In this document: positions 69-24,505 of the stretch, piece after piece
How the letters are laid out: every line of letters begins with the position of its first letter
How positions within the stretch are numbered: position 1 is the first letter of the stretch
Source of the DNA: a virus
IMG/VR virus record: IMGVR_UViG_3300044684_000191
Coordinates: 1 to 24,551 of that record
Direction: 5' to 3' (one strand)
Length of the DNA stretch: 24,551 nucleotides
Made by a program: the position numbers and the translations under genes
The notes under the pieces: generated by a model
Told to the model about the DNA's origin: nothing
What the model saw: the letters and a program-made list of their open reading frames with translations, nothing else
Databases searched by the model: none

Positions 69-82
69 CATTTTCGAAAATG
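69..82. repeat. 14-bp perfect palindrome at the attL border
   Basis: cattttcgaaaatg is its own reverse complement and straddles the first bases of the left repeat (identity with attR starts at 77). The corresponding place at attR reads cattgaaaaatg, so the palindrome exists only on the host side. It may be part of the original transcription end of the host tRNA gene, or chance. Confidence 0.5.
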
Positions 83-127
83 GTGCCCCCGATACGATTC
101 GAACGTACGACCTTCCCCTTAGGAGGG
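77..127. repeat. attL, 51-bp copy of the tRNA-Arg 3' part
   Basis: This stretch is identical to 24425-24475 and carries the complement of the CCA end, acceptor 3' strand, T arm, variable region and most of the anticodon arm of tRNA-Arg(CCT). Identity stops inside the 5' strand of the anticodon stem, where attL continues aga and attR continues gga. Because the integrase and the whole tRNA are at the other end, this copy is the displaced host 3' end, followed leftward by host DNA. The 99 bases between the repeat and the first gene show nothing recognisable apart from the ribosome binding site of that gene. Confidence 0.93.
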
Positions 128-226
128 AGAATGCCATTCGCATAAGAATGCGGGTTGTGGGCTATGCTGTGCCCGGACTGTGACCAATTGAATAATTGGC
201 AGCGAGCTTGTTCAAGGGGGAAGAGG

Positions 227-2512: not shown

Positions 2513-2776
2513 TTACTGGCAGGCCTGGATCGCAGCGAGCAGTTCGCCCTCATATCCCTTTCGTTGAAGCCGTTCGCCACGCAACGCCGCCATCTGGTCC
2601 CAAATTGCGGCACCCAGCGGCAATGCGTCGACAGCCCATGCCGGCGCCTTCGGCAAAGTCACCTTGCACGACACGGCTACCGGTATTTTTACAGTAACGG
2701 GCACGGCCGGGCGGACCTGCTTTGTGCATCCAGCGCACGCGGCTATAGCGGACACCACCAGCACTAGTCGCTTCAT
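2513..2776 (-). CDS. o-spanin (Rz1-like outer-membrane lipoprotein)
   Basis: An 87-residue protein with a lipoprotein signal: MKRLVLVVSAIAACAGC, with a plausible lipobox IAAC at residues 11-14 (Cys17 is an alternative). The mature part is Pro/Val-rich (RPAVPVTVKIPVAVSCKVTLP), as usual for Rz1-type o-spanins that reach across the periplasm to an i-spanin and fuse the two membranes at lysis. The start at 2776 overlaps the stop of the upstream spanin gene in an ATGA arrangement. In-frame codons extend further upstream, but the signal peptide fixes the start. It is the last gene of the leftward structural operon. It is probably intact, but its partner seems to lack a membrane anchor. Confidence 0.8.
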   Translation of the reverse strand: MKRLVLVVSAIAACAGCTKQVRPAVPVTVKIPVAVSCKVTLPKAPAWAVDALPLGAAIWDQMAALRGERLQRKGYEGELLAAIQACQ

Positions 2777-2961
2777 TTCTCGCCCCTTTCCTGCCGCAAT
2801 TCTTCGTCGAACGCCTGCGACGCCGCGCGGCATTCGTCCTCGCCGAGCGGGCGGCTCGCTACGATGGCAGCGGCCTTCTGGTTGTAGGACTCGGCAGCAG
2901 CCGCAGCCGTGCGCTGAGCGACAATGGCAGCTTGCTCCTTCTGCTGCGCGCGCAACGCCAT
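2773..2961 (-). pseudogene. i-spanin (Rz-like) C-terminal remnant
   Basis: A 62-residue Ala/Gln/Glu-rich helical protein (ALRAQQKEQAAIVAQRTAAA) ending in GEDECRAASQAFDEELRQ, which resembles the periplasmic part of an i-spanin, and directly followed by the o-spanin with a 4-base overlap. A functional i-spanin needs an N-terminal transmembrane anchor; none is present. In the same frame spanin-like residues continue upstream of the only ATG (RRQNDAISD), through the stop codon of the next gene, and then the frame runs out within that gene's coding sequence. I read this as a gene that lost its 5' half in a deletion joining it to the tail gene upstream. The start shown is just the first available ATG. 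Confidence 0.65.
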
Positions 2962-2983
2962 GTCGCTAATTGCATCGTTCTGC

Positions 2984-3679
2984 CTACGCGTTGATCTGGG
3001 CGGCCACCTTCCCGACGGTCTGCGAGACCGGGCTATTGGGAAGAATGCCGCCCACCGTCGTCACGTTGAGCATCGTGTTGTCGGCCGCGGCGATCAGCGT
3101 CAGCACGCGGCTTTGTACCGCCTGGATGGGCTGCAGTACCGCGTTGATAGTCGACTGTGCCGCGTTGGCGAACGTCGAGACGCCGCTGATTGCCGTGTTC
3201 AGTGTGCCCAGCAACCCCGACAACGCTCCATCGCCGATCTGGCTGCCGAGACCGTTGGCCGTGTTCATGTCCTGCGTCAGCTGCGCATCGATGTCGGGCA
3301 CATCGCCGGCGACCGTCGGCGTGGCGTTGTCCTGCACGACCTCCAGGACGATTTCGTAGGGAATCCGATATTCGAACTCGTACCTCGCCACGAACCGCCG
3401 GATCACCACCAGGAAATTGAAGCTCGACCACGTCAGCGTCAGCGGCTGGCCAAGGATGCGCTGCGTGTTGAGGTATTGGGCGCGATCGACGGCCGTCGAT
3501 CCCATGAAGATGCCGGACCATTCGATCGGCGCATCATCACGTCCCATCGCGTCCACAACACGGGCACCGCCGACGAGCTTGTGGATCGTCAGCGCCTGCT
3601 CGCCGCCCCAGGGGATGACTTCGGGCACCTCGAAGGCCCCGAAGGTCATATCGCCAAGGGAAAGGGTCACAGTGCTCAT
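2984..3679 (-). CDS. Tail protein downstream of the tape measure, probably C-terminally truncated
   Basis: A 231-residue protein starting MSTVTLSLGDMTFGAFEVPE and containing EWSGIFMGSTAVDRAQYLN and a hydrophobic Ala/Thr/Val-rich second half (GLLGTLNTAISGVSTFANAA). This is the type of tail-tip or baseplate-adaptor protein found right after the tape measure in several phages; the exact role is unknown to me. It begins 8 bp after the tape measure ends. It stops at a TAG that lies within the spanin-like frame described for 2773-2961, suggesting that the true C-terminus and the following baseplate, fibre, holin and endolysin genes were deleted. Family relatives are longer as far as I remember; I cannot measure by how much here. 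Confidence 0.72.
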   Translation of the reverse strand: MSTVTLSLGDMTFGAFEVPEVIPWGGEQALTIHKLVGGARVVDAMGRDDAPIEWSGIFMGSTAVDRAQYLNTQRILGQPLTLTWSSFNFLVVIRRFVARYEFEYRIPYEIVLEVVQDNATPTVAGDVPDIDAQLTQDMNTANGLGSQIGDGALSGLLGTLNTAISGVSTFANAAQSTINAVLQPIQAVQSRVLTLIAAADNTMLNVTTVGGILPNSPVSQTVGKVAAQINA

Positions 3680-3687
3680 GGGGTTCC

Positions 3688-6027
3688 TTAGCCGTTACCG
3701 CCGACGAATCCGATGGGGCCGGGCATCATCGAGCCATCGAACGACGACATGCCGGTCTGCGGTCGCATCGCTTCACGCGTCTGGTGCTGCGTAACGGCGC
3801 GGCCGACTTCGCGCTTGTCGAGGTAGACCTTCGAATGGACCTGGATGGCGTGGCCCGCATTTCCCGTGTAGTTCGACGCGAGGTGCGCCTTCCACTTTGC
3901 GTTGTTGGCGATCGCTTCCTTGGCGTCTTTGTTGCCGAAAAACGCTAGCGTGTGCGCCTCTGCACTGCCGAGCCAGTCTCCGAACTTCGTACCGGAAACG
4001 TAGTGATCGCTGATGTACTTACCAGCAGCAGATCCCGCTTTCCATGCAAGCATTGCAGCAACCACTGCGGCCATTGCTGGGGCTAGAGCCGTCAGACCGG
4101 TTGAAACACCGGCGAGGCCAGCGGCCAGACCGCCGCCAGCAGTGATTGCGCCGCTGATCAACGTAAAGGCGCCGCCAACTGAAACGACAGCACCTGACAC
4201 CATCGCCAGCGTTCCGATGCCCGCGAAAAGCACCAGAAGGCCTTTGGTGAGGGTCGAGTGCCGTCCGATCCACGCAGCGGCCTGCGCAAGGTGCGGATTC
4301 AGCCACTGCAGACCACGGATGAGCATCGGCAAAATTTGCGTGCCCAGCGCGATCTGCAGGTTTTGCATCTGCTTGTGATAATTCAGCAGCTGGCCCTGGT
4401 AGGTCCCCTTTGCAACATTGACCGACGCGTCGATGCCTAGCGTCTTGTTCTGCGCTTCGACGGAATGCTTGATGTTTTCCATCTGCCGATCGATCAGGCT
4501 GAACAGCATTCCTCCTGTGCGGCCAAAGATCAGCGTGTTTTCGCGTGCGCGGTCTTCCGTGGAGTCGAGATGCATCCGCTGATACATCGGCAGGATGTTC
4601 TTCTCGTAGAACGCCACGGGGTCCGAGGAAAAAGTCTGCATGTCCCGCAGTGGGTTGCCATTGAACCGCTTGATGCCGCCCTGCGAGTTCCACACGATCC
4701 GGGAGGCATCCCAAATACCGTTGTCTGCGAGAAGGTGCGCGACCTGGTTGGGAAGGCGCACGCCTCCAACCAGTCGGTTGTAAGACGTCATCCAAGCGTT
4801 GCCAGCAGTGCTTCCCTTCAACTCGCCAATGACCGGTTCCAGCTCTCCAAAAAGGGCCTTGTTGCTGAGCCCTTGGGCTGCGACACCGCCGCGTGCCATG
4901 AACTGGCGCAACTGCTCCCAGTTGACGTTGCCTCCGGAACTGCGGATCGCCTTCCAGCCAGCTTCGGCAATGCCATTGAAAGCAGCTGGGCTATTCAGGC
5001 CGCCGCGCATTTCAATGAAACGCAGCATCGCCAAGCTTTGCGTGTGCAGCCGGGATTGGGACTCTTCGTCCAGGCCCGACGTCGCAAATGCGATCTTGGC
5101 CAGCATTGGCGCCGCCAACTTCGCGCCTCTCAGAGCCTCCGATCCCTGCAGGCCCGACTCACGAAAGACGCCCTGCGCCTCCGCCATGTAGTTGACGGCA
5201 TCCGTCATCGACGTGCCGACGATCTTCATGCTTCGCGCGAATTTGATCGCGTCAGCGTTGAGCCGATCTCCGAGGCCGAAGAGTTGGAAGCGCGCCACTG
5301 CGGACTGGTATCGGGCAGCTTCGTCGATTGGAGCCTGGAGCATGCCGAGCTCAACCTCGCCGCCACGGGCCAGCATCGCCCCGCCCATCATTCGGCCAAA
5401 GGCGTTGTAGTTGAACCCGCCACCGTTGCTACCACCACCGCCGTTCCCGCGGCCGCCACCGAAACCGAATGGCCAGCCGGCGGCCCGAACGGCACCGCCG
5501 CCGCGGTAAGGGAAGCCGCCAGCGGTAGAAGGGGACGGCGGGACTATCGAACCGCCGCCTCTGCCGCCAGCCATGCTCAGGAGCGCCCCCGAAGGCGCGC
5601 CGAGGAGGCGAACGGGTGGCGCGCCCAGACGCGCGGACGCGGAGCCGGGCAGCGCTTGATTGGGATAACCCCGGAACCGAATCTGGTCCTCCTGCTGCAT
5701 CCGCCCCAGGGCGGCGGCCATGACCATATTCGACGCTGAGATCGATGCAGGGGACGCTCCCCCACCGGCTCCGCTTGTGGCGCCACGTGCAGAGCGTGCT
5801 GCCCGGGCGTATCCTTCGGCCTCACGGCGAGCGTTCCGGAAGTCCTGCGCGGCGCTGCTCGCCCAGCTCGTTTTGCGGCTGAGTTCTTCGTTTACTTCGC
5901 GCAGAACCTTCAGGAAGGAGGACGCTTCGGCCTGAGCTTTCGCGAATTGAGCTGCAATTTTGAGGATGTTTCCACGAGTGCCGTCAGCGACGGCAATGCG
6001 TACGCCGATTTTGTAGGCTTCAAACAT
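3688..6027 (-). CDS. Tail tape measure protein
   Basis: At 779 residues this is the largest gene of the window. It starts with a helical, Ala/Glu/Arg-rich region (about 1-85), then a Gly/Pro/Ser-rich low-complexity stretch (about 85-205, with GGGRGNGGGGSNGGG), a long helical middle, and a hydrophobic Gly/Ala-rich segment at about 595-660 (GLLVLFAGIGTLAMVSGAVV), a pattern typical of tape measures, which set tail length and help DNA entry. By the usual rule of about 0.15 nm per residue it would give a tail near 115 nm. Its position after the chaperone genes agrees. The gene is open throughout. Two plus-strand accessory genes start only 18 bp from its start codon, separating it from the preceding tail gene. 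Confidence 0.92.
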   Translation of the reverse strand: MFEAYKIGVRIAVADGTRGNILKIAAQFAKAQAEASSFLKVLREVNEELSRKTSWASSAAQDFRNARREAEGYARAARSARGATSGAGGGASPASISASNMVMAAALGRMQQEDQIRFRGYPNQALPGSASARLGAPPVRLLGAPSGALLSMAGGRGGGSIVPPSPSTAGGFPYRGGGAVRAAGWPFGFGGGRGNGGGGSNGGGFNYNAFGRMMGGAMLARGGEVELGMLQAPIDEAARYQSAVARFQLFGLGDRLNADAIKFARSMKIVGTSMTDAVNYMAEAQGVFRESGLQGSEALRGAKLAAPMLAKIAFATSGLDEESQSRLHTQSLAMLRFIEMRGGLNSPAAFNGIAEAGWKAIRSSGGNVNWEQLRQFMARGGVAAQGLSNKALFGELEPVIGELKGSTAGNAWMTSYNRLVGGVRLPNQVAHLLADNGIWDASRIVWNSQGGIKRFNGNPLRDMQTFSSDPVAFYEKNILPMYQRMHLDSTEDRARENTLIFGRTGGMLFSLIDRQMENIKHSVEAQNKTLGIDASVNVAKGTYQGQLLNYHKQMQNLQIALGTQILPMLIRGLQWLNPHLAQAAAWIGRHSTLTKGLLVLFAGIGTLAMVSGAVVSVGGAFTLISGAITAGGGLAAGLAGVSTGLTALAPAMAAVVAAMLAWKAGSAAGKYISDHYVSGTKFGDWLGSAEAHTLAFFGNKDAKEAIANNAKWKAHLASNYTGNAGHAIQVHSKVYLDKREVGRAVTQHQTREAMRPQTGMSSFDGSMMPGPIGFVGGNG

Positions 6028-7205: not shown

Positions 7206-7776
7206 CAGCTTTCCTCAACAAAGCGCATGCTCTGCATGTCGAATTTTGCACCCTCGAAGATCCTGAAGCAGATCGCCAGCGCCGTGCGATCAACGTCGTC
7301 CAGCTGGTCCGCACCGGTTCCATCGAGCCCAAATGCCATCTGGATCGGCACCCCGTTCTTCACGAGCCACGCTCGCTGCTTGTACTCGGGATGCCTTAGG
7401 CGTTTTTTACCTGCTCCTGCAGGTCAATATCGGGCGACTGGAAGTGCAACATGCTGCCCTTGAACACCGCGGCGTATCCGTCCTCGTCAAGGCGCTGCAG
7501 AATCGCCTCGACCTGCAGCTTCGTCGTAGGCGTCGGCACCGGGTCGCCGTCGATACTCGCTACGTACAGGACCGGCGAGACGCTGTTCATATAGGCCTCG
7601 TTCGTCGCGGACGGGCCCATGGCTTCGATAAGGCGGAACTGAGCTAGGAACGGTGGCTTTCGGAGTCCTATCACGCGACCACGCGCATCAGTGACCGTGA
7701 TGTCCTTGGGAGCTTCGGGCGCCGGCGCCTGGGTTCCTTCCAGGATCTGCATTCTTACGTTGTTGTCGTTGCTCAT
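7205..7776 (-). CDS. Tail assembly chaperone, -1 frameshift product (GT-like)
   Basis: The long form is read as 7776 to 7402, then again from 7402 to 7205 after a one-base slip, about 190 residues in total. The extra 65 codons read RLRHPEYKQRAWLVKNGVPI and end EGAKFDMQSMRFVEES, a plausible acidic/basic folded domain without internal stops. The stop TGA overlaps the ATG of the next gene. This matches the G/GT layout: two products sharing an N-terminus and made in a fixed ratio. The -1 extension is otherwise unexplained sequence between two tail genes. Confidence 0.82.
7396..7776 (-). CDS. Tail assembly chaperone, zero-frame form (G-like)
   Basis: A 126-residue acidic protein (MSNDNNVRMQILEGTQAPAP, then ..DARGRVIGLRKPPFLAQFRL) located between tail tube and tape measure, the standard position of the lambda G/GT-type chaperones that bind the tape measure during tail assembly. 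I chose ATG 7776, which overlaps the upstream stop as TGATG; a GTG at 7779 is possible. The reading frame ends with QVKNA and TAA right after an A AAA AAC heptamer. The downstream sequence continues open in the -1 frame, so this is the short product of a programmed frameshift pair. Confidence 0.85.
   Translation of the reverse strand: MSNDNNVRMQILEGTQAPAPEAPKDITVTDARGRVIGLRKPPFLAQFRLIEAMGPSATNEAYMNSVSPVLYVASIDGDPVPTPTTKLQVEAILQRLDEDGYAAVFKGSMLHFQSPDIDLQEQVKNA
7402..7408 (-). promoter_or_regulatory. Programmed -1 frameshift slippery site A AAA AAC
   Basis: On the minus strand the zero-frame codons GTA-AAA-AAC present the X XXY YYZ heptamer A AAA AAC, one of the most efficient bacterial -1 sites, two codons before the zero-frame stop. 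A perfect 5-bp stem with a 3-base loop (CGAGC GTG GCTCG, 7363-7375) lies about 26 bases downstream and could act as a stimulator, though it is further away than usual; a tiny GCC-TAA-GGC stem also sits next to the heptamer. Confidence 0.85.
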
Positions 7777-8426
7777 CACTGCACCTGGATGCGACGGGAG
7801 GCGAAGGCATGGACCTTCGCGTTGACGAGGGAGTCACCACGCCACGAACCGGGGTCGTCCAGACGCAGTGTCACGCCGGTGTAGCGGAACTGCGAAATGC
7901 CGCCGCCAGGTTCCTGGATGATTTCGGTGATCGTCCCAGGCTGCAGGTTCTGCCCATTGAAATACGCGGCTTCGAGGGCAGAAAAATAAGCATCGAATGC
8001 CGGCCCGTTGCGCTCGAACTCGATCATTCCGTCCCAGCCCACGGGGATACCCGTGCCAAGCGCAGGCCCCGGGGCGATGCCGAGGAACCCGCACATGCGC
8101 CGCCGCCAGTCGTCGAAGAGCCGCTTCCTGTCGCCGACCTCGTTAGCGTTGTGCACCCACACCGACGCCTGGGCGGTATCGAGGTTGCCTGATGCGGCCA
8201 CGATGGCGTTCTCCAACGTGTAGAGGTTGGTGAGGTACACGGTGATCAGCGTGCTTTCGTTCTCCGGCGTGAGATTGCTGAGCCGGTGAAACAGCGTCTG
8301 CCAGACGCCCGGCGACACGAAGCCATAGGCAAAATCGCGGGAATCATCCGCCGGCGTGTCGGTGCCCAGCATCGGGTAGCCCGCGAACCGACGCACGTCG
8401 GCGATCTGCTGGGTGGTCAATGCCAT
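7776..8426 (-). CDS. Chimera: head-completion-like N-terminus joined to tail-tube C-terminus
   Basis: The 216-residue protein seems to be built from two unrelated phage proteins. Residues 1 to about 122 (MALTTQQIADVRRFAGYPML, DNLDTAQ-like, DDWRRRMCGFLGIAPGPALG) look like a small head-tail connector encoded after the coat gene, a type that normally ends near GPGLG. From about 127 on (GWDGMIEFERNGPAFDAYFS, TITEIIQEPGGGISQFRYTG, then FASRRIQVQ) it reads like the C-terminal half of a tail tube protein. The frame is open across the joint (about 8045-8055). The genes expected in between, tail terminator and, in a contractile phage, the sheath, are absent. The family assignments are from memory, so a search is needed. 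Neither half is likely to work normally. Confidence 0.68.
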   Translation of the reverse strand: MALTTQQIADVRRFAGYPMLGTDTPADDSRDFAYGFVSPGVWQTLFHRLSNLTPENESTLITVYLTNLYTLENAIVAASGNLDTAQASVWVHNANEVGDRKRLFDDWRRRMCGFLGIAPGPALGTGIPVGWDGMIEFERNGPAFDAYFSALEAAYFNGQNLQPGTITEIIQEPGGGISQFRYTGVTLRLDDPGSWRGDSLVNAKVHAFASRRIQVQ

Positions 8427-12305: not shown

Positions 12306-13580
12306 TTACAAGCGCAGCGGCTTGACGCTGCTCGATGGCAGCCGTACCACTGGCCAGCGGAAGACCATGAAATAGCCGCCAGCATCGTTTGCGTGATCGT
12401 GCCCGGTCTTCTTGTCGGGGTCGCCGTGATCGTCGTAGGGCTGCTGCTCAAGGCTTTCGGTGAAGCTTGGGCACATATCGGTGTTGACCTTCAGCCGACG
12501 CTCGCCCTTGTCATTCAAAATCAGCGCATTGACGCTGTTCACGCGGTCCTTTACCGGCGGATTGGCGTCTTTCGCCCGGATTTGAAAGCCAGCCTGCTGC
12601 AGGATTGTCAGGTCCGACTGGCTTGCGCTCTTGCTGCTGGTGTTCTTGCCGCTGGCATCGGGGTAGACGGTGATGCTGTGCCCATTGTCGACATAGCGTT
12701 CGCGCAGCTTGCGCGCCATTTCCGGTGTATCGCGCACCTTCGTCAGTTCACCAACAGCGTGCGGGGCGTCATCGCGCACCACGAAAACGATCGCTGCCAT
12801 CTTGTTGACGTTGAAGTCCATGCCGACATGCAAAGGCTCATCCGGCAGAGGGACCGTGGGAGCATGGTTCAGCACCCGGTCGAAATCCGGATACACGCAA
12901 CCGCTGGTGAGGTTGACGAAGCGCCCAGCCAGGTAGGCTTCGATCAGTTGCGGCGGATAGCTCGTGCGCAGTGTATCGACGTAATCGGGTGCCAAGAACG
13001 GATTGGTCCACGTCGGCGCCTGCACCATGACGTAGCCTGGCTTGGGATTCCTCCCCCAAGTCTCATAGACGAAGTTGAAGCCTTCCGGCGTGGTATAGGC
13101 GCTCACCCGGTTGAAGGGCTTCTTCACGCCTTTGGGGCTTTGCCGGTTACGCGCGATGATCTTGCGCCAGATCAGCGTGGCGCGATCTTTTTTAAGCGTG
13201 TCGATCTCATCTACGTGAGCGCGATATGACTCGTAGCCAACAATGCGCGCTGGATTGTCCAGCGTCCGCAGGATGAAATCGCCGCAGCCACCGTTCGAGG
13301 TGTAGATGATGTTTTCGGTCTTGTTGTACTTGTAGCGGACGCCAAGCTCCGAAAGCTTGTCCTCCATGCGCGGCGCGAGGATCAACCGCACCAGGTCATA
13401 GGTAGGCTCGTACAGCGCGATCAAGGTCGACGATGAGGTCAGCACATCGCGCACTGCGCACATGGCCAACGCTTCGGTCTTACCGGTGCCGAAACCGCCT
13501 ACAAACGCAGGGAATTTATCGGGAAGCTGAAAGAACCGCGCCTGCGGCTCCGTCATCGTCAGCTCAAGCTCCCGTCCCAT
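12306..13580 (-). CDS. terL: Terminase large subunit
   Basis: A 424-residue packaging ATPase/nuclease. Walker A is GGFGTGKT (residues 28-35), Walker B with the catalytic acid is in AHVDEID (Asp124, Glu125), and the RNase H-like nuclease has acids at LHVGMDFN (Asp255), ITVYPDASG (Asp308) and the late DHANDAGGYFMVF (Asp395/Asp399). The order and length are standard, so the motor itself looks functional. It overlaps the end of the small-subunit fusion gene by 17 bp, indicating coupled translation. Its natural partner, the small subunit, is here present only as a C-terminal half fused to a methyltransferase. Confidence 0.95.
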   Translation of the reverse strand: MGRELELTMTEPQARFFQLPDKFPAFVGGFGTGKTEALAMCAVRDVLTSSSTLIALYEPTYDLVRLILAPRMEDKLSELGVRYKYNKTENIIYTSNGGCGDFILRTLDNPARIVGYESYRAHVDEIDTLKKDRATLIWRKIIARNRQSPKGVKKPFNRVSAYTTPEGFNFVYETWGRNPKPGYVMVQAPTWTNPFLAPDYVDTLRTSYPPQLIEAYLAGRFVNLTSGCVYPDFDRVLNHAPTVPLPDEPLHVGMDFNVNKMAAIVFVVRDDAPHAVGELTKVRDTPEMARKLRERYVDNGHSITVYPDASGKNTSSKSASQSDLTILQQAGFQIRAKDANPPVKDRVNSVNALILNDKGERRLKVNTDMCPSFTESLEQQPYDDHGDPDKKTGHDHANDAGGYFMVFRWPVVRLPSSSVKPLRL

Positions 13581-14736
13581 GACCCACTACCCTGATCGTG
13601 ATGCCGGTTACGGGCCTGTCGTCGACGTCGTCGCCGATCTCGCGTTCGCGCTTCTGGATGTCCAGGCGCTTCAGGTCCGCGTCCAGCTCCTGCTGGATGA
13701 GCAGCGCGCGGCGCGCCTCCAGGGATTCAATGCGAGCGGTCAGGCGATCGATAAGGCCGGCGTAATCACGGACCTTGTGCTTTTCCTCGCTACGCGCCCC
13801 AACTTTGTCGTTGACCTCGCGCTCGATGCGCTCTTCAAGTTCCGGCTCGTCGCCTTTTTCCTGTTCGCGCTCCAGCGCCCTCAGAAGGCGGATGCGCGTC
13901 AGCCGCAGTTCTTCGTCGACATTGCCCAGCTCGAGTCCCGCAGCAATGTCGCGCTCCTCCTCAGTGAGGAAACGGCTATAAAGGCTGCCGGGCTTGGTGC
14001 CGGCGCCGTAGTCACAGGCTTTCAGTAGGCGATATTCGCCGACGTAGCCAAGCTCGCGCATCACGGCATTGAACTTGCGCCAGGTCTCGCCGAGGCGGCG
14101 CTTGTCCGGCACAAGATACTGCCGTTGCACCGGCACGCGCTCACCTGGCTCGGCGATGCGATTGGTCATGACGGGCTTGCCGCGGCGCATGACGACCTCG
14201 CCGGTCTCTTCGTCGATCAGCGGGACCATATCCAACGTCACGACGCGGCCGGTGGCCTTGTCGCGCTTGGCGACCAACGGACACCACTGCAGGATCTGCT
14301 TTACGTTTTCGAGCGAGATGATCCGCGGCGCAAGCCCGTGGCGAGCAAGCCGGCCGGCGATCTTCGGAATAACCCAGCTGAGCGATCGCGTTGCCTTGTC
14401 GCGCGGCTGGCCACCCTTCGCCTGGCTGAAGTGCGTGCAGTCGGGCGACGCGTGGAACCAACCGACCAGGCGGCCGGCCACCTCGCGCAATATGTCCACT
14501 TCCCACACGTCCGCTGGCAGGTGCTGGGTGAAGGGATGGTTCGCCGCATGCATGCCGATGGCTTGCGGATCGTGATTCACCGCAACGTCGGGATCGCGGC
14601 CCAGTGCTTGGCGCAGCGCCTCGCTGGCGCCGCCCCCGCCCGCAAAGAAATCCACGACGATCTCGCCTGCGCGCAATGCGCTGACCAGCTTGCGATGCGG
14701 GAAGTTGAACCCGTGTTGACCGATTCCATCAGGCAT
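13564..14736 (-). CDS. Chimera: C5-cytosine methyltransferase N-half fused to terminase small subunit C-half
   Basis: Residues 1 to about 244 of this 390-residue protein are a C5-methyltransferase: SAM-binding motif I VVDFFAGGGGASEA (28-40), catalytic cysteine motif in FHASPDCTHFSQAKG (Cys100), and motif VI ENV (143-145). The domain stops at KACDYGA, just where families of this type continue into the R-rich motif VIII, the target recognition domain and motifs IX-X, all absent. From about 245 on (TKPGSLYSRFLTEEERDIAA, NVDEELRLTRIRLLRALERE, RDYAGLIDRLTARIESLEA) it is the C-terminal half of a terminase small subunit, without the N-terminal DNA-binding helix-turn-helix. The joint is near 13998-14008, in frame. 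Methylation is probably abolished. The TerS oligomerisation and TerL contact part may survive. A natural fusion cannot be excluded, but loss of both functional ends points to a deletion. Confidence 0.82.
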   Translation of the reverse strand: MPDGIGQHGFNFPHRKLVSALRAGEIVVDFFAGGGGASEALRQALGRDPDVAVNHDPQAIGMHAANHPFTQHLPADVWEVDILREVAGRLVGWFHASPDCTHFSQAKGGQPRDKATRSLSWVIPKIAGRLARHGLAPRIISLENVKQILQWCPLVAKRDKATGRVVTLDMVPLIDEETGEVVMRRGKPVMTNRIAEPGERVPVQRQYLVPDKRRLGETWRKFNAVMRELGYVGEYRLLKACDYGAGTKPGSLYSRFLTEEERDIAAGLELGNVDEELRLTRIRLLRALEREQEKGDEPELEERIEREVNDKVGARSEEKHKVRDYAGLIDRLTARIESLEARRALLIQQELDADLKRLDIQKREREIGDDVDDRPVTGITIRVVGHGTGA

Positions 14737-14944
14737 GCGCCATTGCTCCTATCGTTACTACGCCGGCCGTCTTAGCGACGGCTTCCGATACGCATGCACG
14801 GCAGCGCCCGAAGCGGAGCTTGCCGCTTTCAATCCGCCAGAATTCGGAGGTAGCTGGATGCCAAGAATCCTCGCCATAGCCGCGCGCGACGCAGCTGCGG
14901 CACTGGCGGTATTCGCCATCGGGACGATGCTGAAAGTCGCTCAT
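14729..14944 (-). CDS. Small zinc-ribbon protein (CxxC...CxxC)
   Basis: A 71-residue protein with two Cys pairs, Cys15-x2-Cys18 and Cys48-x2-Cys51, separated by a Phe/Trp-containing spacer (YRQCRSC, then GKLRFGRCRACVSE). This is like the zinc-binding modules often found at the start of phage HNH proteins. Here no HNH domain follows. Its stop overlaps the start of the methyltransferase fusion by 8 bp, so they are translated together. It is the first clear gene of the leftward operon. Function unknown. Confidence 0.7.
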   Translation of the reverse strand: MSDFQHRPDGEYRQCRSCVARGYGEDSWHPATSEFWRIESGKLRFGRCRACVSEAVAKTAGVVTIGAMAHA

Positions 14945-15060
14945 GCTGCAGCCGCCTGCCGGTGATCAGCAGGCCACCAGGTCAGCGCGAGATTGCCGGT
15001 GAGCGTACATTCGCGCTTATCCCCTTTCACTACGGCGTTTGCGCGCACAGCTTCCCTCAC
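14941..15060 (-). pseudogene. Possible 3' remnant of a leftward gene
   Basis: On the minus strand the frame ending at a TGA that overlaps the zinc-ribbon ATG (ATGA type) is open for about 40 codons back from GTG 15060: REAVRANAVVKGDKRECTLT and GNLALTWWPADHRQAAAA. There is no good start codon and a TAG stop shortly upstream. The coupling to the next gene suggests the tail end of a real gene whose front was removed, but it overlaps the nuclease gene on the other strand, so it may be chance. Confidence 0.28.
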
Positions 15061-15850
15061 CGTCCGCGCCAGCTCCTGGGCCAGCCTGTTTGATTGCGCC
15101 TATCGCTGGGAGGGCATCTACCTCAAACACATGCGCAACGTCGTCGGATTGCGCGCTGCGCTCGGTACAGCCATCCATGCCGCTACGGCCGTCTTCGATC
15201 AAGGCAGGCTCGATAACGCTGACATTACGGCCGACGACGCCGCCGGCGTGATGGTCGACAAGCTGCGGGATCCTTCGAACGAGTTCGATCCTCGGCGCGA
15301 CGACCTGACCATGCGGGACGCTGAGCGTGCCGGCCTATCGCTCGTGACCACGTACTGCCTCGATGTCTCACCGCACTACCAGTTCGTCGCCGTCGAGATG
15401 GAAACGAAGCCACTGGATATCGACTGCGGTGGCGGTGTGATTGTGCGCCTGACCGGAACCATGGATCGCGCTCGCGTGCGGAAGGCCACTCATGGTGTCG
15501 GTATTGCTGACCTCAAGAGTGGCGGTGCAGCCGTGCAAAACGGCGTTGCGGTCACGAAGGGGCACGGTCCGCAGGTGGGCACGTACGAACTCCTTTACGA
15601 GCACACCACTGGCGAAGCAATCACCGACGAAGCCGAAATCATCGGTTTGAAAACGGCTGGCCGGCCGGAGATCGCCACCGGATCCATTTCGAACGGCAAG
15701 CGCGTGATGGTCGGCACCGAAGACCAGCCCGGCCTTATCGAATTCGCCGCTGACATGTTCCGCAGTGGTCGCTTTTATCCGAACCCAAAATCTCTGCTCT
15801 GCAGCGCGGCGTACTGCCCACGCCATGCGAGCTGCCCATTCCACGACTAA
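14993..15850 (+). CDS. PD-(D/E)XK exonuclease with Cas4/AddB-like cysteines
   Basis: A nuclease of up to 285 residues. Core motifs: GTAIHAAT (His62), LTGTMDRA (Asp158), GIADLKSG (Asp173-x-Lys175) and QVGTYEL (Gln194, Tyr198), the order seen in RecB-like and Cas4-like nucleases. One Cys near the N-terminus (FDCAYRW, Cys35) and three at the C-terminus (Cys270, Cys275, Cys281) recall the iron-sulfur staple of Cas4 and AddB. With the annealing protein that follows it forms a two-component phage recombination system: 5'-3' resection, then strand pairing. The start is uncertain: TTG 14993 or GTG 14999. Conserved-looking sequence begins at LTVRASSW (residue 22), and the leader may be altered by a deletion joint. 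A 62-bp gap to the next gene holds its ribosome binding site. Confidence 0.88.
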   Translation: MPVSVHSRLSPFTTAFARTASLTVRASSWASLFDCAYRWEGIYLKHMRNVVGLRAALGTAIHAATAVFDQGRLDNADITADDAAGVMVDKLRDPSNEFDPRRDDLTMRDAERAGLSLVTTYCLDVSPHYQFVAVEMETKPLDIDCGGGVIVRLTGTMDRARVRKATHGVGIADLKSGGAAVQNGVAVTKGHGPQVGTYELLYEHTTGEAITDEAEIIGLKTAGRPEIATGSISNGKRVMVGTEDQPGLIEFAADMFRSGRFYPNPKSLLCSAAYCPRHASCPFHD

Positions 15851-15912: not shown

Positions 15913-17082
15913 ATGAGCACCGCAACCTCACTCGCCGCTGTAAAGCAATCCGGGGACCTCACCAGCGGTCCGGACACCAAAGTCGACATGTTCTCCGCGC
16001 GCGGTTTCGCGCTTGCGCAACGCATCGCAAATGCGTTTGCTTCGAGCGACGCCGTGCCAGCGCAGTTTCGATCGCACAACCTCAAGCGCGAGAGCAACGG
16101 GGCGGAAAACTGGGTGCCGAACCAGTCCGCACTCGGAAATTGCATCGTAGCGATCGAGGTTGCGCAGGCCGTTGGCATGTCCGTAACTGCCGTCATGCAG
16201 AACGCGGACGTGATCGAAGGGAAGCTGCGGTGGTCCGGCAAATTCGTGATCGCGGCCATCAATGCGTCGCGCAGGTTTACCCCGCTCCGCTTCGACATCC
16301 AGAACCTCGGTCGGATCAAGGCCTCCTACAAGGAAAAAGGCTCCTGGAATAAGGAACTGCGGCGATACGACATGACCGAAAAGACGGTTGAGGTCGAGAA
16401 CCTGCAGTGCATCGCCTGGGCCATCCCTGCAGGCGTGCAGATGCCGCCTGGTGTCTACACGCTCGCCCAGGCGCGCGAGGCCAAACTGCCCGTCATCGAG
16501 TCGGCCCCGGTGTCCATCAAGATGGCAGTCGAGGAAGGCTGGTATTCCAAAGCAGGCAGTAAGTGGCAGACCGAATTGAAGCACCTGATGCTGCAGTACC
16601 GAGCCGGCACTTTCTTCGGCAACATCCATGCACCCGACATCGTGATGGGCATGGGCCGCACGGTCGAGGAAGAACGCGACATCATCGATATCACGCCTGA
16701 AGGAGCCGTCGTCAGCATCACGCCGGCATCTCTCCGTGAGCGCAACGGTTCCCAGGCGAAAGTAGTCAACCAAGGCCCCGCTGATACCGTCGTCGCGGAT
16801 CCTGTCACCGCCGAAGTCATCAGCACGAGCGGCAACGAAGCCACCGGCGCGCAGGAGGCTCAGCCGGCGCAAAGCCAGCACCAGCACAGCGTTCCCACCG
16901 TCGCCGACGCGCTCTCATTCGTGAACCAGGGCGACTACGACATGGCCAGGGACATCGCGCGCAGCCTCGGCCATGAATGGCTCGAACACATCGAAAAGGC
17001 TATCGCTTCGCGCGACGCTGGCCAGCAAGAACAGCCTCAGCAGTCCGGTGGCCGCCGTAATCGTGGCGCCAACCTCGAATAA
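15913..17082 (+). CDS. RecT-like single-strand annealing protein
   Basis: A 389-residue protein with the RecT-family core at about 25-245: DMFSARGFALAQRIANAFAS, NCIVAIEVAQAVGMSVTAVM, GKLRWSGKFVIAAINAS, and the typical end KWQTELKHLMLQYRAGTFFG with IVMGMGRTVEEERD. RecT proteins coat single strands made by the partner exonuclease and anneal them to homologous DNA. The C-terminal third is low-complexity (QEAQPAQSQHQHSVPTVADA) with a short helical module after it and a basic tip (GGRRNRGANLE). ATG 15913 follows AAAGGA. The 190 bp after it (17083-17273) show no gene; they hold short GC-rich inverted repeats but no convincing terminator. Confidence 0.9.
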   Translation: MSTATSLAAVKQSGDLTSGPDTKVDMFSARGFALAQRIANAFASSDAVPAQFRSHNLKRESNGAENWVPNQSALGNCIVAIEVAQAVGMSVTAVMQNADVIEGKLRWSGKFVIAAINASRRFTPLRFDIQNLGRIKASYKEKGSWNKELRRYDMTEKTVEVENLQCIAWAIPAGVQMPPGVYTLAQAREAKLPVIESAPVSIKMAVEEGWYSKAGSKWQTELKHLMLQYRAGTFFGNIHAPDIVMGMGRTVEEERDIIDITPEGAVVSITPASLRERNGSQAKVVNQGPADTVVADPVTAEVISTSGNEATGAQEAQPAQSQHQHSVPTVADALSFVNQGDYDMARDIARSLGHEWLEHIEKAIASRDAGQQEQPQQSGGRRNRGANLE

Positions 17083-17995: not shown

Positions 17996-18445
17996 ATGGA
18001 GTTTTACACGCACATTCCCGGCGAGATCCTTGCCGAAGCACTGGAGCCACTCAATGCACGGCTGCGCTGGTCCGCCGATGTTGCCGAATGGCCGCAGGTC
18101 CTTATCCAGCCCAGTATGTCGATCCTCATTGCCGGCAATAAGTCGGGAACGGTCTGGCGTCCGTACAACCTGGTATCTGAATCGGAGCAGTGGCGGGTAG
18201 ATGCGATGGTTGCCGAAGCCATCACCCACCTTTCCGGTTTGCGCCTGCTGGTGCTGGATCGCTTCGACGTTCTGGATCTGCGCGGCAGGGGTGACCTGAT
18301 GGCATGGCTCGAAGCGATCGCTGGCGAGGTCGACACCGCCATCCTTTTCGGCACTCTCAAGTCGCTCCCGGCCAACTTGCCAGCCGTTGCCACCGCTCAC
18401 TGGCTCGACCACGGCTCTCTCGCACAGCTCAAAGAAGCAGCATGA
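17996..18445 (+). pseudogene. C-terminal fragment of an SMC/Rad50-like phage ATPase
   Basis: The 149-residue protein contains the late part of an ABC-type ATPase: SESEQWRVDAMVAEAITHLS (signature-helix region) followed by LRLLVLDRFDVLDLRGRGDL (Walker B-like, hydrophobic strand ending in Asp) and DTAILFGTLKSL. The Walker A half, the coiled-coil arms and most of the length (such proteins run to several hundred residues) are missing. The first few codons (MEFYTHI) and the GGAGG before them look like an original gene start, so the two ends of one gene may have been joined in frame near 18010-18030. It cannot hydrolyse ATP as it stands. Overlaps the next gene by ATGA. Confidence 0.65.
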
Positions 18446-19446: not shown

Positions 19447-20547
19447 ATGAGCGCTCGCAGCAAGATCGAATGGACCGATGCCACCTTCAATCCTTGGATC
19501 GGGTGCACGAAGGTTTCGCCAGCCTGTGACCACTGCTATGCCGAAGCATGGGATCGCCGCTTCGCTGTGAGCGGACACGCCATGCACTGGGGTCCCGGCA
19601 AAGCACGGCGCCGCACTTCTGCGGCGAATTGGAAGCTGCCGCTGCGCTGGGAGCGTGAGCACGCGGCGTTCTTCGCACAGCACGGGCGCCGCCGCCGCGT
19701 GTTCTGCGCCAGCCTGGCCGATGTGTTCGACAACGAAGTGCCTGGATCGTGGCGCGCTGACCTGTTCGACCTGATCCGCTCCACCCCGAACTTGGACTGG
19801 CTGGTGCTGACCAAACGCATCGGTAACGCCATGGCGATGCTAGATGAAGCCGGCGGTTGGGCTGGCATTGACACACACGGCGCGCGAAACCCTCTGTCCA
19901 ACCTAAAGCTTGGAGCGACGGCCGCAAACCAATCCGAGGCCGATCGCGACATCGCCAGATTGCTCGCGGTGCCCGCTGCAGGACATTTTGTGTCGATCGA
20001 ACCGATGCTTGGTCCGATTGATCTAGAGCACCTCGGCCGATACTCGGCCTACCGATGGATCAACGCGCTCACCGGCTGGGTTACCGAGGGTCATTTGGCC
20101 AGGTCCCCAGAAGAATGCAGTAGCAATGTCGCCTGCTATCAGGCTACTCGCCTGGATTGGGTAATCGTCGGTGGCGAGTCTGGCCCCGGTGCACGCCCCA
20201 TGCATCCCGACTGGGCACGCTCCCTGCGTGATCAGTGCGCCAGCGCTGGCGTGCCGTTCTTCTTTAAGCAGTGGGGCGAGTGGCGCCCGGCAGCAAGCGT
20301 TGCAGAGGCAACCAACTACCCGACCCTGGCCAACAACCGCTTGACGCTTCCGGAAGATGACCCGGCGCGTGACGTGAATCCTATGTCCGGCTGCTATCAG
20401 CTAGCCCACCAGGTCGGGAGCTTGCTGGATGGCACCGGTCAATACGCGCACCTCAACTGCGCCATGTTTCGCGCCGGCAAGCGCGCCGCCGGCCGCCTAC
20501 TCGATGGCGTCGAACACAACGCATTCCCGGGACAACGCAATGCCTGA
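19447..20547 (+). CDS. DUF5131 family protein (phage Gp37/Gp68-like)
   Basis: A 366-residue protein with the family signature at the N-terminus: IEWTDATFNPWIGCTKVSPA, then CDHCYAE, giving Cys20, Cys27 and Cys30, a cluster like that of radical-SAM-type metal sites. Further conserved-looking blocks are RVFCASLADVFD, LDWLVLTKRI, FVSIEPMLGPI, DWVIVGGESGPGARPMHPDW and VPFFFKQWGEW. The length fits the family. These proteins are frequent in phages and prophages and their reaction is not established. It starts on its own ATG after a gap and ends 1 bp before the end of a convergent minus-strand gene. Confidence 0.9.
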   Translation: MSARSKIEWTDATFNPWIGCTKVSPACDHCYAEAWDRRFAVSGHAMHWGPGKARRRTSAANWKLPLRWEREHAAFFAQHGRRRRVFCASLADVFDNEVPGSWRADLFDLIRSTPNLDWLVLTKRIGNAMAMLDEAGGWAGIDTHGARNPLSNLKLGATAANQSEADRDIARLLAVPAAGHFVSIEPMLGPIDLEHLGRYSAYRWINALTGWVTEGHLARSPEECSSNVACYQATRLDWVIVGGESGPGARPMHPDWARSLRDQCASAGVPFFFKQWGEWRPAASVAEATNYPTLANNRLTLPEDDPARDVNPMSGCYQLAHQVGSLLDGTGQYAHLNCAMFRAGKRAAGRLLDGVEHNAFPGQRNA

Positions 20548-20548
20548 C

Positions 20549-21205
20549 TTAAAGCACGGCTCCGAAGGTTTCCCGGCAGTACTTCAAGTAGGGTTCGAAA
20601 TTCTTTTGAATCTGTACACAGTGCGTTTCAACAGTTGCGGCGACCTTCCGTTGAGCGTCCATCGCGAAGCCGTCCTGAGTAAGATTCGGTTGAATCGAAT
20701 ACGCAAGCCTGCTGGCAAATCGCGCGGCGCTCATCGCGCCAGCTGTCCATGCTGCACACTCCTCGGGAAGCTCTGCAACACTTTCCGGTCTGACGTCATT
20801 GATTGCTTCATTCCAGTGTTTCGCGTGCTCGAAGAGTTGAGCTCCAAGCCGCCTCATAACCGTGTAGTCAGTTGCTGCAGCAAGCCCGCTAGCGCTTGCT
20901 TGGACTGGCTGGATAAAGCCGTATACAAGCGCAATTTCATTGAAGATGTAGGCCGCATGCACTTCTGCGCGCCTGGCGCTCTTCGTGTCCTGTCGCTCGT
21001 CTTCCTTCTTTGCAATTTCCAGGGCTGTCTTGGCAGCCCAGAAGCTTGCCACGGCCGCTGCGAATCCACCGGCAGCTGCAAGCAATCCAACAAACGCCGC
21101 CGCCCAAGCCGCTTGCTCGCCAGCATTCAGCCCAAGCCACCAGCGAACGCTTGGCGTGGAATGTTGCAGCGTGCCGGCAGCTGCGCAAACTGGATCCAAC
21201 ATCAT
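20549..21205 (-). CDS. Single-pass membrane protein encoded against the operon
   Basis: About 218 residues: a short N-terminus, one strongly hydrophobic segment at about 28-52 (WAAAFVGLLAAAGGFAAAVA) and a charged helical rest (ALEIAKKEDERQDTKSARRA, HAAYIFNEIALVYGFIQPVQ). ATGs at 21205 and 21202 follow GGGGAG. It starts head-to-head with the ASCH-like gene, their start codons overlapping, and converges with DUF5131. More AT-rich than the neighbours. The layout, one membrane helix then cytoplasmic helices, is like the DUF6680 gene at the left end, though I see no clear sequence similarity. Likely an accessory gene expressed independently; function unknown. Confidence 0.7.
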   Translation of the reverse strand: MMLDPVCAAAGTLQHSTPSVRWWLGLNAGEQAAWAAAFVGLLAAAGGFAAAVASFWAAKTALEIAKKEDERQDTKSARRAEVHAAYIFNEIALVYGFIQPVQASASGLAAATDYTVMRRLGAQLFEHAKHWNEAINDVRPESVAELPEECAAWTAGAMSAARFASRLAYSIQPNLTQDGFAMDAQRKVAATVETHCVQIQKNFEPYLKYCRETFGAVL

Positions 21206-21914
21206 GCGTGAACTCCCCATTCTGTTCTCCGCGCCGATGGTGCGCGCGATCCTGGAAGGCCGCAAGTCGCAGACGCGGCGCGCGGTCAAACCTCAGCCAA
21301 CACAATGTTGCCCAACGGGGTCCTCACTACCCCTTGCGCAAGGCGATTGGGCTTGGCCATATCCGAAGACCGGCGGTGGAATCGTCCGCGTGTCAAACCG
21401 CCGAAACGGACCAGAAGGTTGGACCGAGCACTGCCCCTATGGGCAGGCTGGTGATCGGTTATGGGTGCGCGAAACATGGCGTTATGCCGACTGGACTGGA
21501 GACGGCTATCCGTGGATCGAATACCAGGCTGACTCGGCCAAGTCGCTGCGCGACAGCCAATTGCCGCCGGAATGGTCAGAACGCGTCATCGATATCTGGG
21601 CCAAGCTTTCCGAGGAAGAGAATTTCGCGATCGACGGCCGTGCGGCCGATCGCAAGTGGCGCCCATCCGTCCACATGCCCCGCTGGGCCAGCCGCATCAC
21701 GCTGGAAGTCACCGACGTGCGCGTGGAGAGGCTGCAGGACATCAGCGAGGCGGATGCGATCGCCGACGGCTGCATCGCCGTGAACAAGGGGATTTCGTGG
21801 CACACAGCGGCAGATGCGTTCGAGGCGCTCTGGAATTCGATCAACGGGCCCGGCGGCTGGGATGCCAACCCTTGGGTGTGGGTGGTCGCGTTCAAGCGCG
21901 TGGAGGAAGCATGA
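21204..21914 (+). CDS. ASCH-like phage protein
   Basis: A 236-residue protein starting MRELPILFSAPMVRAILEGR with KSQTRRAVKPQP, a start shared by phage proteins related to the ASCH fold. Later come GDRLWVRETWRY, KWRPSVHMPRWASRITLEVT and VRVERLQDISEADAIADGC, also typical. ASCH domains resemble RNA-binding folds and some have amidohydrolase activity (YqfB), so a nucleic-acid or nucleoside role is plausible but not shown. In-frame codons upstream overlap the opposite membrane gene and are not coding in my view; ATG 21204 has only a weak ribosome binding site. Overlaps the next gene by ATGA. Confidence 0.85.
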   Translation: MRELPILFSAPMVRAILEGRKSQTRRAVKPQPTQCCPTGSSLPLAQGDWAWPYPKTGGGIVRVSNRRNGPEGWTEHCPYGQAGDRLWVRETWRYADWTGDGYPWIEYQADSAKSLRDSQLPPEWSERVIDIWAKLSEEENFAIDGRAADRKWRPSVHMPRWASRITLEVTDVRVERLQDISEADAIADGCIAVNKGISWHTAADAFEALWNSINGPGGWDANPWVWVVAFKRVEEA

Positions 21915-22147
21915 GCGACATCCTTGATGCCGACTTCGACGCGGTGACAAAACTAGCCATGGAGACGATCCAAGCCGGCATGCACCTCAAGCCCGTGGAC
22001 AAGGAGGCTTACCTGGAAGTGCTTGGGAACATCGCCATCCAGGTGATGCGAGCCACGTGGGGAGATGAATATGCGCGTGGCTGGTTGGACTCCGCAGTTC
22101 GCTCGTTGAGCGAACCGTGCGTGTTGAATCTGAGGAAGCCGCAATGA
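21911..22147 (+). CDS. Small hypothetical phage protein
   Basis: A 78-residue acidic helical protein (MSDILDADFDAVTKLAMETI, AYLEVLGNIAIQVMRATWGD) with ATGA overlaps at both ends and GGAGGAAGC before the start. Real by coupling and composition. Family and function not recognised. Confidence 0.72.
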   Translation: MSDILDADFDAVTKLAMETIQAGMHLKPVDKEAYLEVLGNIAIQVMRATWGDEYARGWLDSAVRSLSEPCVLNLRKPQ

Positions 22148-22701
22148 GCGATCTCTTCCAGAACGAAACCGAATGTTTGATTTCCGAGTGCGGCCAGTTT
22201 CGATACCTGATCCGCGAAGTGTGGGAACCGACGAAGCCCAAAGTGGGCTGGGTGCTCTACAACCCGTCGACCGCCACGGCAGAGAAAAGCGACCCAACGA
22301 AGAGCCGCATCCGCAACTTCACTGCTGCATGGGGGTACGGCGGCTACCTGCTGGCCAACCAGCACGCCGGCGGCCGCTCACCCAACCCCGGCGACTTAGA
22401 CGCAATGGCAGACCCGACCGGACCGGAGAATGATCGCTGGCTTGAGTACCTGGCGCGCGAAGCCGATCTGATCCTGGTCGCATGGGGCGATCTGCCGACT
22501 TCTCCCGAACGCACGCGCCAGGTCATCGAGATCCTGCGCGCCACCGGCAAGCCGCTGCACTGCCTCGGTACGGCCGCCAGCGGCAACCCCAAGCATCCGC
22601 TCGCGCGCGGCAAAGCGGCGATCCGAACCGATCAGAAACCTATTCTTTGGCTGCCAAGCAGCGACGTGATGAGCAACCCGCCTTCAAGGAAAGCACCATG
22701 A
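22144..22701 (+). CDS. DUF1643 family protein
   Basis: A 185-residue protein with the pattern that marks DUF1643: FRYLIREVW, then GWVLYNPSTATAEKSDPTKS, a Gly/Tyr stretch YGGYLLANQHAGGRSPNP, DLILVAWGD and a late LHCLGTAASGNPKHPL. Members are common in phages and mobile elements; no activity is established that I know of. ATG 22144 overlaps the previous stop and its own end overlaps the next start. Confidence 0.88.
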   Translation: MSDLFQNETECLISECGQFRYLIREVWEPTKPKVGWVLYNPSTATAEKSDPTKSRIRNFTAAWGYGGYLLANQHAGGRSPNPGDLDAMADPTGPENDRWLEYLAREADLILVAWGDLPTSPERTRQVIEILRATGKPLHCLGTAASGNPKHPLARGKAAIRTDQKPILWLPSSDVMSNPPSRKAP

Positions 22702-23152: not shown

Positions 23153-23491
23153 ATGGGTGCCGCCGAGAAGATCGATCTGGCCGGCAAAGACTGGCTGACC
23201 GTGGAGGAAGCCGCCCACTACTGCGGCGTTTCGGACAGCCAGTTTCGCAAGAACGCGAATGCCTACGGACTGGTGGCGAAGCGATTTATGGGCAAGCAGC
23301 TCTATGCAAAGTCCGACCTATACGCAGCAATCAACGGAGCAGAATCGTGGCTGACGTCGTCACCATCTATTGGCGAGGTCCGTGCGCATACCTCAATTGG
23401 CGCCAGGGCGGTCAACGATTCAGGCGGAGCCTCGGCAAACTTACAGCCGGTGAGGCTGAGAAAATTCGTTCCCAGAAAGAAGCGGAGCTGA
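23153..23491 (+). CDS. Excisionase-like helix-turn-helix protein
   Basis: A 112-residue protein. Residues about 13-62 (DWLTVEEAAHYCGVSDSQFR, KRFMGKQLYAKSDLYAAI) form a MerR/excisionase-type winged helix-turn-helix as used by many Xis proteins that bend DNA near the attachment site and direct excision. The C-terminal 45 residues are Ser/Ala/Arg-rich, lie in the part that overlaps the integrase gene by 145 bp, and look like overprinted sequence. Position directly before int supports Xis. An additional regulatory role is possible because no other repressor-like protein was found in the element. Confidence 0.78.
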   Translation: MGAAEKIDLAGKDWLTVEEAAHYCGVSDSQFRKNANAYGLVAKRFMGKQLYAKSDLYAAINGAESWLTSSPSIGEVRAHTSIGARAVNDSGGASANLQPVRLRKFVPRKKRS

Positions 23492-24348
23492 TTCATGGCG
23501 TGCGAATCATTTCGCGCGCGCCGCTCGTTCGCGATTTCTTTGAGCGTTGGTATTTCGACCACTACGATGCAACACATCCAACCACGGGCGGTAAACTGCG
23601 CAGCGAGGTGAAGCGCTTCATTGCGCAGTTCGGGCATCGGCCGATCGATTCGCTGAAGCGCGAAGAACTGAATGCCTACACGAATGCTCGCCTCACAAAA
23701 GACAAAGCATCCCGCGAGACAGTAGGCAAGGAAATCCGTAGGCTGAAGGCGGCGTTCAACCTGGGTATCGAGATGGAGCAACTCGACGCCAATCCCATGA
23801 AGGGAATCAAGGCACCCCGCGGAGTGCGAAGCGTCGCAGTGAAGTTCTACGACAAGACCGCGCTCGCTAAGCTGTATAAGGCCAATCCCACGCGCGCCCC
23901 ACTCTGGCAGTTCATGGCCCACACCGGCATGCGACGCGGCGAAATGGTCAAGTTCACCAAGGACGACGTGCAGCGTAACTGCGTGGTGATCGAGTCGATC
24001 CCTGACGAAACCGGCGCGGGTCGGACAAAGTCGGGCAAATGGCGCCAGGTGCCGCTCAATGCGAAGGCGAAAGCAGCGCTGAAGAGGCTCCCGCACAAGC
24101 CGGTCACGGTGCATTTTGACACGCTCACCGATTGGTTCAGCGCTGACGCGAACGCAGCGGATATCGGCGGCACACTAAATCGCCTGCGCCACACGTTCGG
24201 CGCGAACCTGACCATGGCCGGCGTACCGTTGCGCCGCGTACAGGAATTGATGGGCCACGCAGATTACAAAACAACCGAGAAGTTCTATGCGCACCTCGCG
24301 CCTGAGGGTGCAAGCGGCGCAGTGAAGGCGCTGGAAAAGGTACTGTGA
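23347..24348 (+). CDS. int: Tyrosine-type site-specific integrase
   Basis: A 333-residue integrase. N-terminal arm-binding part: ITIYWRG-like start (VTIYWRGPCAYLNWRQGGQR); core-binding helices at about 58-150; catalytic domain with Arg196 (HTGMRRGE), Lys228 (TKSGKWRQVPL), Arg281 (RLRHTFGA), His304 (LMGHADYKTT) and nucleophile Tyr314 (KFYAHL). The residue three before Arg281 is Asn278 where most relatives have His. The start is GTG 23347, overlapping the excisionase-like frame by 145 bp; the N-terminus then matches family usage. It ends 76 bp before the attR repeat. It explains integration in the tRNA-Arg. Confidence 0.95.
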   Translation: MADVVTIYWRGPCAYLNWRQGGQRFRRSLGKLTAGEAEKIRSQKEAELIHGVRIISRAPLVRDFFERWYFDHYDATHPTTGGKLRSEVKRFIAQFGHRPIDSLKREELNAYTNARLTKDKASRETVGKEIRRLKAAFNLGIEMEQLDANPMKGIKAPRGVRSVAVKFYDKTALAKLYKANPTRAPLWQFMAHTGMRRGEMVKFTKDDVQRNCVVIESIPDETGAGRTKSGKWRQVPLNAKAKAALKRLPHKPVTVHFDTLTDWFSADANAADIGGTLNRLRHTFGANLTMAGVPLRRVQELMGHADYKTTEKFYAHLAPEGASGAVKALEKVL

Positions 24349-24424: not shown

Positions 24425-24475
24425 AAAATGGTGCCCCCGATACGATTCGAACGTACGACCTTCCCCTTAGGAGGG
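24425..24475. repeat. attR, 51-bp core within tRNA-Arg
   Basis: Identical to 77-127. It covers the 3' part of the intact tRNA gene from the anticodon stem to the CCA end plus four bases. If strand exchange takes place in the anticodon loop, as with many tRNA-targeting integrases, the 3' part of the present tRNA was supplied by the phage and restores a functional gene. The 76 bp between int and this repeat contain no gene; arm-type integrase sites are expected there but I cannot identify them. Confidence 0.93.
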
Positions 24476-24505
24476 GGACGCTCTATCCAACTGAGCTACG
24501 GGGGC
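24429..24505 (-). tRNA. tRNA-Arg(CCT)
   Basis: The minus strand folds into a complete cloverleaf of 77 nt including an encoded CCA: acceptor GCCCCCG/CGGGGGC, D stem GCTC/GAGC, anticodon stem TCCCC/GGGGA with loop CTCCTAA (anticodon CCT, reading AGG), variable AGGTC, T stem GTACG/CGTAT with loop TTCGAAT, and discriminator A. A run of five T follows the CCA. It is the integration target, and is kept intact by the phage-side repeat. Confidence 0.97.

Follow-up and report, generated by a model that had tools for sequence, protein, structure and literature searches.

The open reading frame that overlaps the large terminase (TerL) gene in the window (the whole stretch of 24,551 nucleotides of virus record IMGVR_UViG_3300044684_000191) is an in-frame chimera, formed by the front of a phage C5-cytosine methyltransferase and the C-terminal part of a small terminase subunit (TerS). 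The fusion is very probably an accidental deletion scar, one of at least four, in a shrunken and defective prophage. A deletion that removed the intervening genes was one of two origins offered in the preliminary description, and it is supported because both halves are separate and complete genes in relatives, the joint (J1) carries a 3-bp microhomology, and at least three further joints (at ~8050, ~18010 and ~2980) are present in the same record. The positions of the features are given in Table 1.

Table 1. Positions of the fusion, the deletion joints and the associated prophage genes in the window.
Feature	Position	Strand	Description and basis
Left att repeat	77..130	none	54 bp, 98% identical to 24425-24478; copy of tRNA-Arg 3' part; repeat search, ARAGORN
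Rz1-like lipoprotein	2513-2776		follows i-spanin part
i-spanin (Rz-like) C-terminal part	2773..2979	minus	no membrane anchor; putative, from gene pair and lipoprotein signal
Truncated tail gene	2984..3679	minus	~231 of ~321 aa kept; phrog_21362; J4 just below
Second in-frame fusion (head/tail genes)	7776..8426	minus	phrog_14539 N part and phrog_12993 C-terminal part; J3 at ~8050-8054
TerL, intact	12306..13580	minus	Pfam Terminase_6N and Terminase_6C; fusion stop overlaps by 17 bp
Methyltransferase-TerS fusion ORF	13564..14736	minus	single open frame, ATG start, 390 aa
TerS half of fusion	13564..13995	minus	last ~140 aa and stop; homologous to L082 TerS (186 aa); phrog_1889
Joint J1 of fusion	13995..13997	minus	CCA, 3-bp microhomology common to both parental sequences; pairwise alignments to L002, L082
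Methyltransferase half of fusion	13996..14736	minus	motifs I, IV, VI present; motif VIII, target recognition domain (TRD), motif X lost
71-aa ORF	14729..14944	minus	overlaps start of fusion
Phage exonuclease	14993..15850	plus	phrog_69
RecT-like annealing protein	15913..17082	plus	phrog_561
SbcC-like ATPase remnant	17996..18445	plus	C-terminal 144 aa only, of ~600 aa; J2 at ~18010
Tyrosine integrase	23347..24348	plus	adjoins tRNA; Pfam Phage_integrase 4.7e-18
Right att repeat	24425..24478	none	within intact tRNA-Arg(CCT) gene
tRNA-Arg(CCT), intact	24429-24505	minus	ARAGORN

The chimera itself had been described before, with no strand given, and is upheld by profile matches to both families. Residues 27-149 match Pfam DNA_methylase (PF00145, E value 2.4e-11), residues 25-246 match the DNA methyltransferase family phrog_116 (4e-42), and residues 252-359 match the terminase small subunit family phrog_1889 (2.5e-4). 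J1 falls at codons ~247-248, and residues 1-248 correspond to the methyltransferase. The 17-bp overlap with TerL that had been reported is borne out by the ORF coordinates.

The methyltransferase side of the joint (13995-14736) has 95% DNA identity to locus L002, and the retained part of the protein is 98% identical. The gene in L002 continues to ~710 residues; motif VIII (SRERV) and motif X (GNSVSPP) are both present in its full-length product, as is the recognition region. Motifs I, IV and VI, which the fusion has in common with other phage C5-cytosine methyltransferases (phrog_116, PF00145), are recognized in the translation and by the Pfam and PHROG matches, as had been stated. Comparison with the full-length L002 protein and a solved DNMT1 chain (KACDYGAGT/SRERV and EAGAYGVSQ/SRKRA, respectively) places the cut directly before motif VIII, in agreement with the earlier observation that the homology stops at KACDYGA. 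In contrast to these phage enzymes, motif VIII, the target recognition domain and everything else downstream of the cut, including motif X, are absent from the fusion. The methyltransferase extends at least 302 residues past the truncation point in 73 viral loci, counting those not cut by an edge. The fusion product is expected to have no methyltransferase activity. Two Pseudomonas genome contigs (L267 and L292) have methyltransferase relatives with short frames that end soon after the matched part; these could be either truncated genes or small forms in their own right.

The other side of the joint, with TerS and TerL (12346-13997), has 76% DNA identity to locus L082. TerS in L082 is a separate gene of 186 residues, with its own start and a Cys/His HGG segment at the N-terminus, and it is likewise separate in other relatives, with its own N-terminal HGG segment. 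The C-terminal ~140 residues, the gene position and the overlap with TerL of phrog_1889-type small subunits are all found in the fusion. On the other hand, the N-terminal segment of ~45 residues is missing and the methyltransferase part is located in its place. The HGG motif is visible in all 11 of the aligned relatives, with the rows of L088 and L178 starting too late to show the segment whole. The preliminary description was correct in assigning a C-terminal part of TerS to the fusion, but this part amounts to about three quarters of the protein (the last ~140 of 186 residues) rather than half. The same description had the TerS portion lacking its DNA-binding domain. The loss of the HGG segment agrees with this, and a role of the segment in DNA binding or recognition is plausible. 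Without it the product would probably be useless as a TerS, having no specific DNA recognition. The predicted TerS model is of moderate to low confidence (pTM 0.43), and a sequence search found no solved structure for this TerS family.

The three further joints show the same kind of damage. At J3, homology to L408 extends down to 8050 and homology to L412 up to 8054, an overlap of ~5 bp. The two parent genes are separate in L408 and L412 and lie 3.3-3.6 kb apart in four relatives, with ~3.5 kb gone from the window. At J2, at least 189 residues precede the part homologous to the ATPase remnant in 61 of 61 relatives, and the remnant is probably preceded by the initial codons of a small gene, which in G013 is found after the same neighbor. 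At J4 (~2980), the tail gene stops after 231 residues, running out of frame into the end of the putative i-spanin gene and the Rz1-like lipoprotein. The gene pair and the lipoprotein signal suggest a spanin pair here, with no match to a named family. The frame is kept at three of the four clear joints, which counts against the deletion reading, as random frames would give this with a chance of ~0.11. A further loss, the fifth, may have occurred between the methyltransferase gene and the 71-aa ORF, because in L003, L006 and L007 the homologue of this ORF lies upstream of the methyltransferase at a distance of 0.8-1.1 kb.

The two att repeats mark both ends of one integrated prophage in the window, 24.35 kb in length. 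An excisionase-like ORF is found beside the tRNA-Arg and integrase genes. Two Dyella family genomes have integrases of 72% and 63% identity next to the same tRNA. The joined att site matches genomes of this family over the tRNA region only, with up to 100% identity, and a search of them for an empty integration site gave matches to the tRNA part, with the flanks unmatched. The host is probably a bacterium of the Dyella family. Intact copies of TerL, portal and the major head genes remain in the element, and damage or loss affects the genes for tail, adaptor, lysis and early functions. PHROG scans of the ORFs, several small ones of which had no match, recognized neither an immunity repressor nor a replication gene. 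The prophage is probably dead. As a point against a defective prophage, stops and frameshifts do not abound in its remaining genes.

The relatives used for comparison (G003, G004, G012 and G013) are 40-60 kb in size, and the element is colinear with them but gapped. The distance between the exonuclease and TerS genes is 9-13 kb in G004, G005, G012 and G013, compared to 1 kb in the element. In G252, which carries a different terminase type, this interval contains a full-length methyltransferase of the same family as that in the fusion, followed by another methyltransferase and by primosomal genes; these lie consecutively with TerL and portal on one strand, opposite to that of the exonuclease. 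This same-strand arrangement makes a deletion from the methyltransferase gene into TerS a natural event.

These observations are consistent with the following course of events. A temperate phage would have integrated into a bacterial tRNA-Arg gene, with the usual order of integrase, RecT-exonuclease, immunity region, methyltransferases and replication genes, TerS, TerL, head, tail and lysis. Several internal deletions may then have removed about half of the prophage genome. One of them would have extended from within the methyltransferase gene into TerS on the same strand, the ends being joined on the 3 bp of microhomology and the frame being kept by chance. The setting for such a short-microhomology deletion would be a prophage whose function is no longer required. 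In the methyltransferase half, dN/dS relative to L002 is ~0.03 (34 synonymous and 4 nonsynonymous changes). There is no acceleration of this half relative to L003, nor of TerS relative to TerL. The low dN/dS and the lack of acceleration in either half indicate that the joining is recent or that the halves are still constrained, of which a recent joining needs fewer assumptions.

The same fusion, which the preliminary description had suggested looking for elsewhere, was not found in any of the sets searched, which may omit entries nearly identical to the window. With the whole protein as query, 261 phage records match and none covers 80% of the query. No such fusion was seen in viral contigs, where a degenerate DNA pattern for the joint also had no match, and in the genome contigs and 233 Dyella family genomes only unfused methyltransferases or TerS-like matches were found. 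A family with both halves as one protein was not found among these records. The papers retrieved in a literature search for a methyltransferase-TerS fusion do not seem relevant, judging by title and abstract. A near-identical undeleted copy of the prophage was not found either, and the ancestral state was therefore rebuilt from relatives that are 5-25% diverged in DNA.

The single occurrence of J1 might also be expected of an assembly or amplification artefact, in which reads or templates of two related phages from one sample were joined. The two sides of J1 resemble different phages, L002 and L082 (close to the respective sides) have the same sample prefix, and the homologies overlap at J1 by just 3 bp, like those of chimeric templates. 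We nevertheless consider an artefact unlikely. The gene order of intact relatives is kept in the record, and its ends are defined by matching att repeats at a genuine tRNA-Arg site. The GC content is similar on either side of J1 (0.62 and 0.61), and ordinary k-mer misjoins need a longer overlap than 3 bp.

In the other origin offered in the preliminary description, a packaging subunit had gained a SAM-binding head and would package DNA without specificity, as reported for gene transfer agents. The open frame across J1, the intact TerL, portal and major head genes and the low dN relative to dS in both halves would fit such a domesticated, functional fusion. However, no second instance was found in the phage records, viral contigs, genome contigs or Dyella family genomes, the methyltransferase fold ends short of motif VIII, and the predicted model of the fusion (pTM 0.48) has a low-confidence linker at residues 237-273, around the joint. 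The broken or missing tail, adaptor, lysis and early genes and the retained integrase and att sites also argue against it. A functional fusion is highly improbable on these grounds, and neither the acquired head nor the packaging trait is sustained. The likeness to gene transfer agents is superficial and consists of head genes without an evident complete phage genome; those agents are locked in the genome, with a complete head and tail cluster and no integrase or att sites, whereas the element has an integrase, att repeats and broken genes. A variant in which the shrunken prophage is young, selection kept head, portal and TerL, and TerS exchanged its DNA-recognition segment for the SAM-binding head, leading to unspecific packaging, is barely credible.

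As a probable deletion scar, the fusion belongs to a further defective prophage of an already described kind. Prophages that have become defective through deletion of lytic functions, with the integrase retained, are well known (reviewed in PMC6379469; statistics of gene loss in PMC7744054). The element resembles such cryptic or grounded prophages in its integrase and att sites at a tRNA gene, its short genome, its lost lysis, tail and apparently also replication functions and its fused gene remnants. It differs from them in one respect, as packaging genes are reported to be preferentially lost in incomplete prophages (PMC7744054) and the head genes and TerL are largely intact here. Prophage deletions can thus create open and plausible chimeric genes, which annotation pipelines would call new domain architectures. 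The presence of other joints within the same record is a warning sign for such chimeras.

Several other features of the prophage were observed. The tape measure protein (3688-6027) contains ~165 residues (48-213) for which the nearest relative has no equivalent. A gene for an SOS-response-associated peptidase (SRAP, 976-1971) is located near the left end and is a possible cargo gene. A DUF5131/phrog_2045 protein of unassigned function (19447-20547) is conserved in several exonuclease-bearing relatives. The region 21203-22650 includes a DUF1643 gene and shares 84-98% identity with G001, from which the 95% methyltransferase match also comes. In G001 the orientation of this region relative to the methyltransferase is opposite to that in the window, and the likeness reflects mosaic exchange between the two elements.
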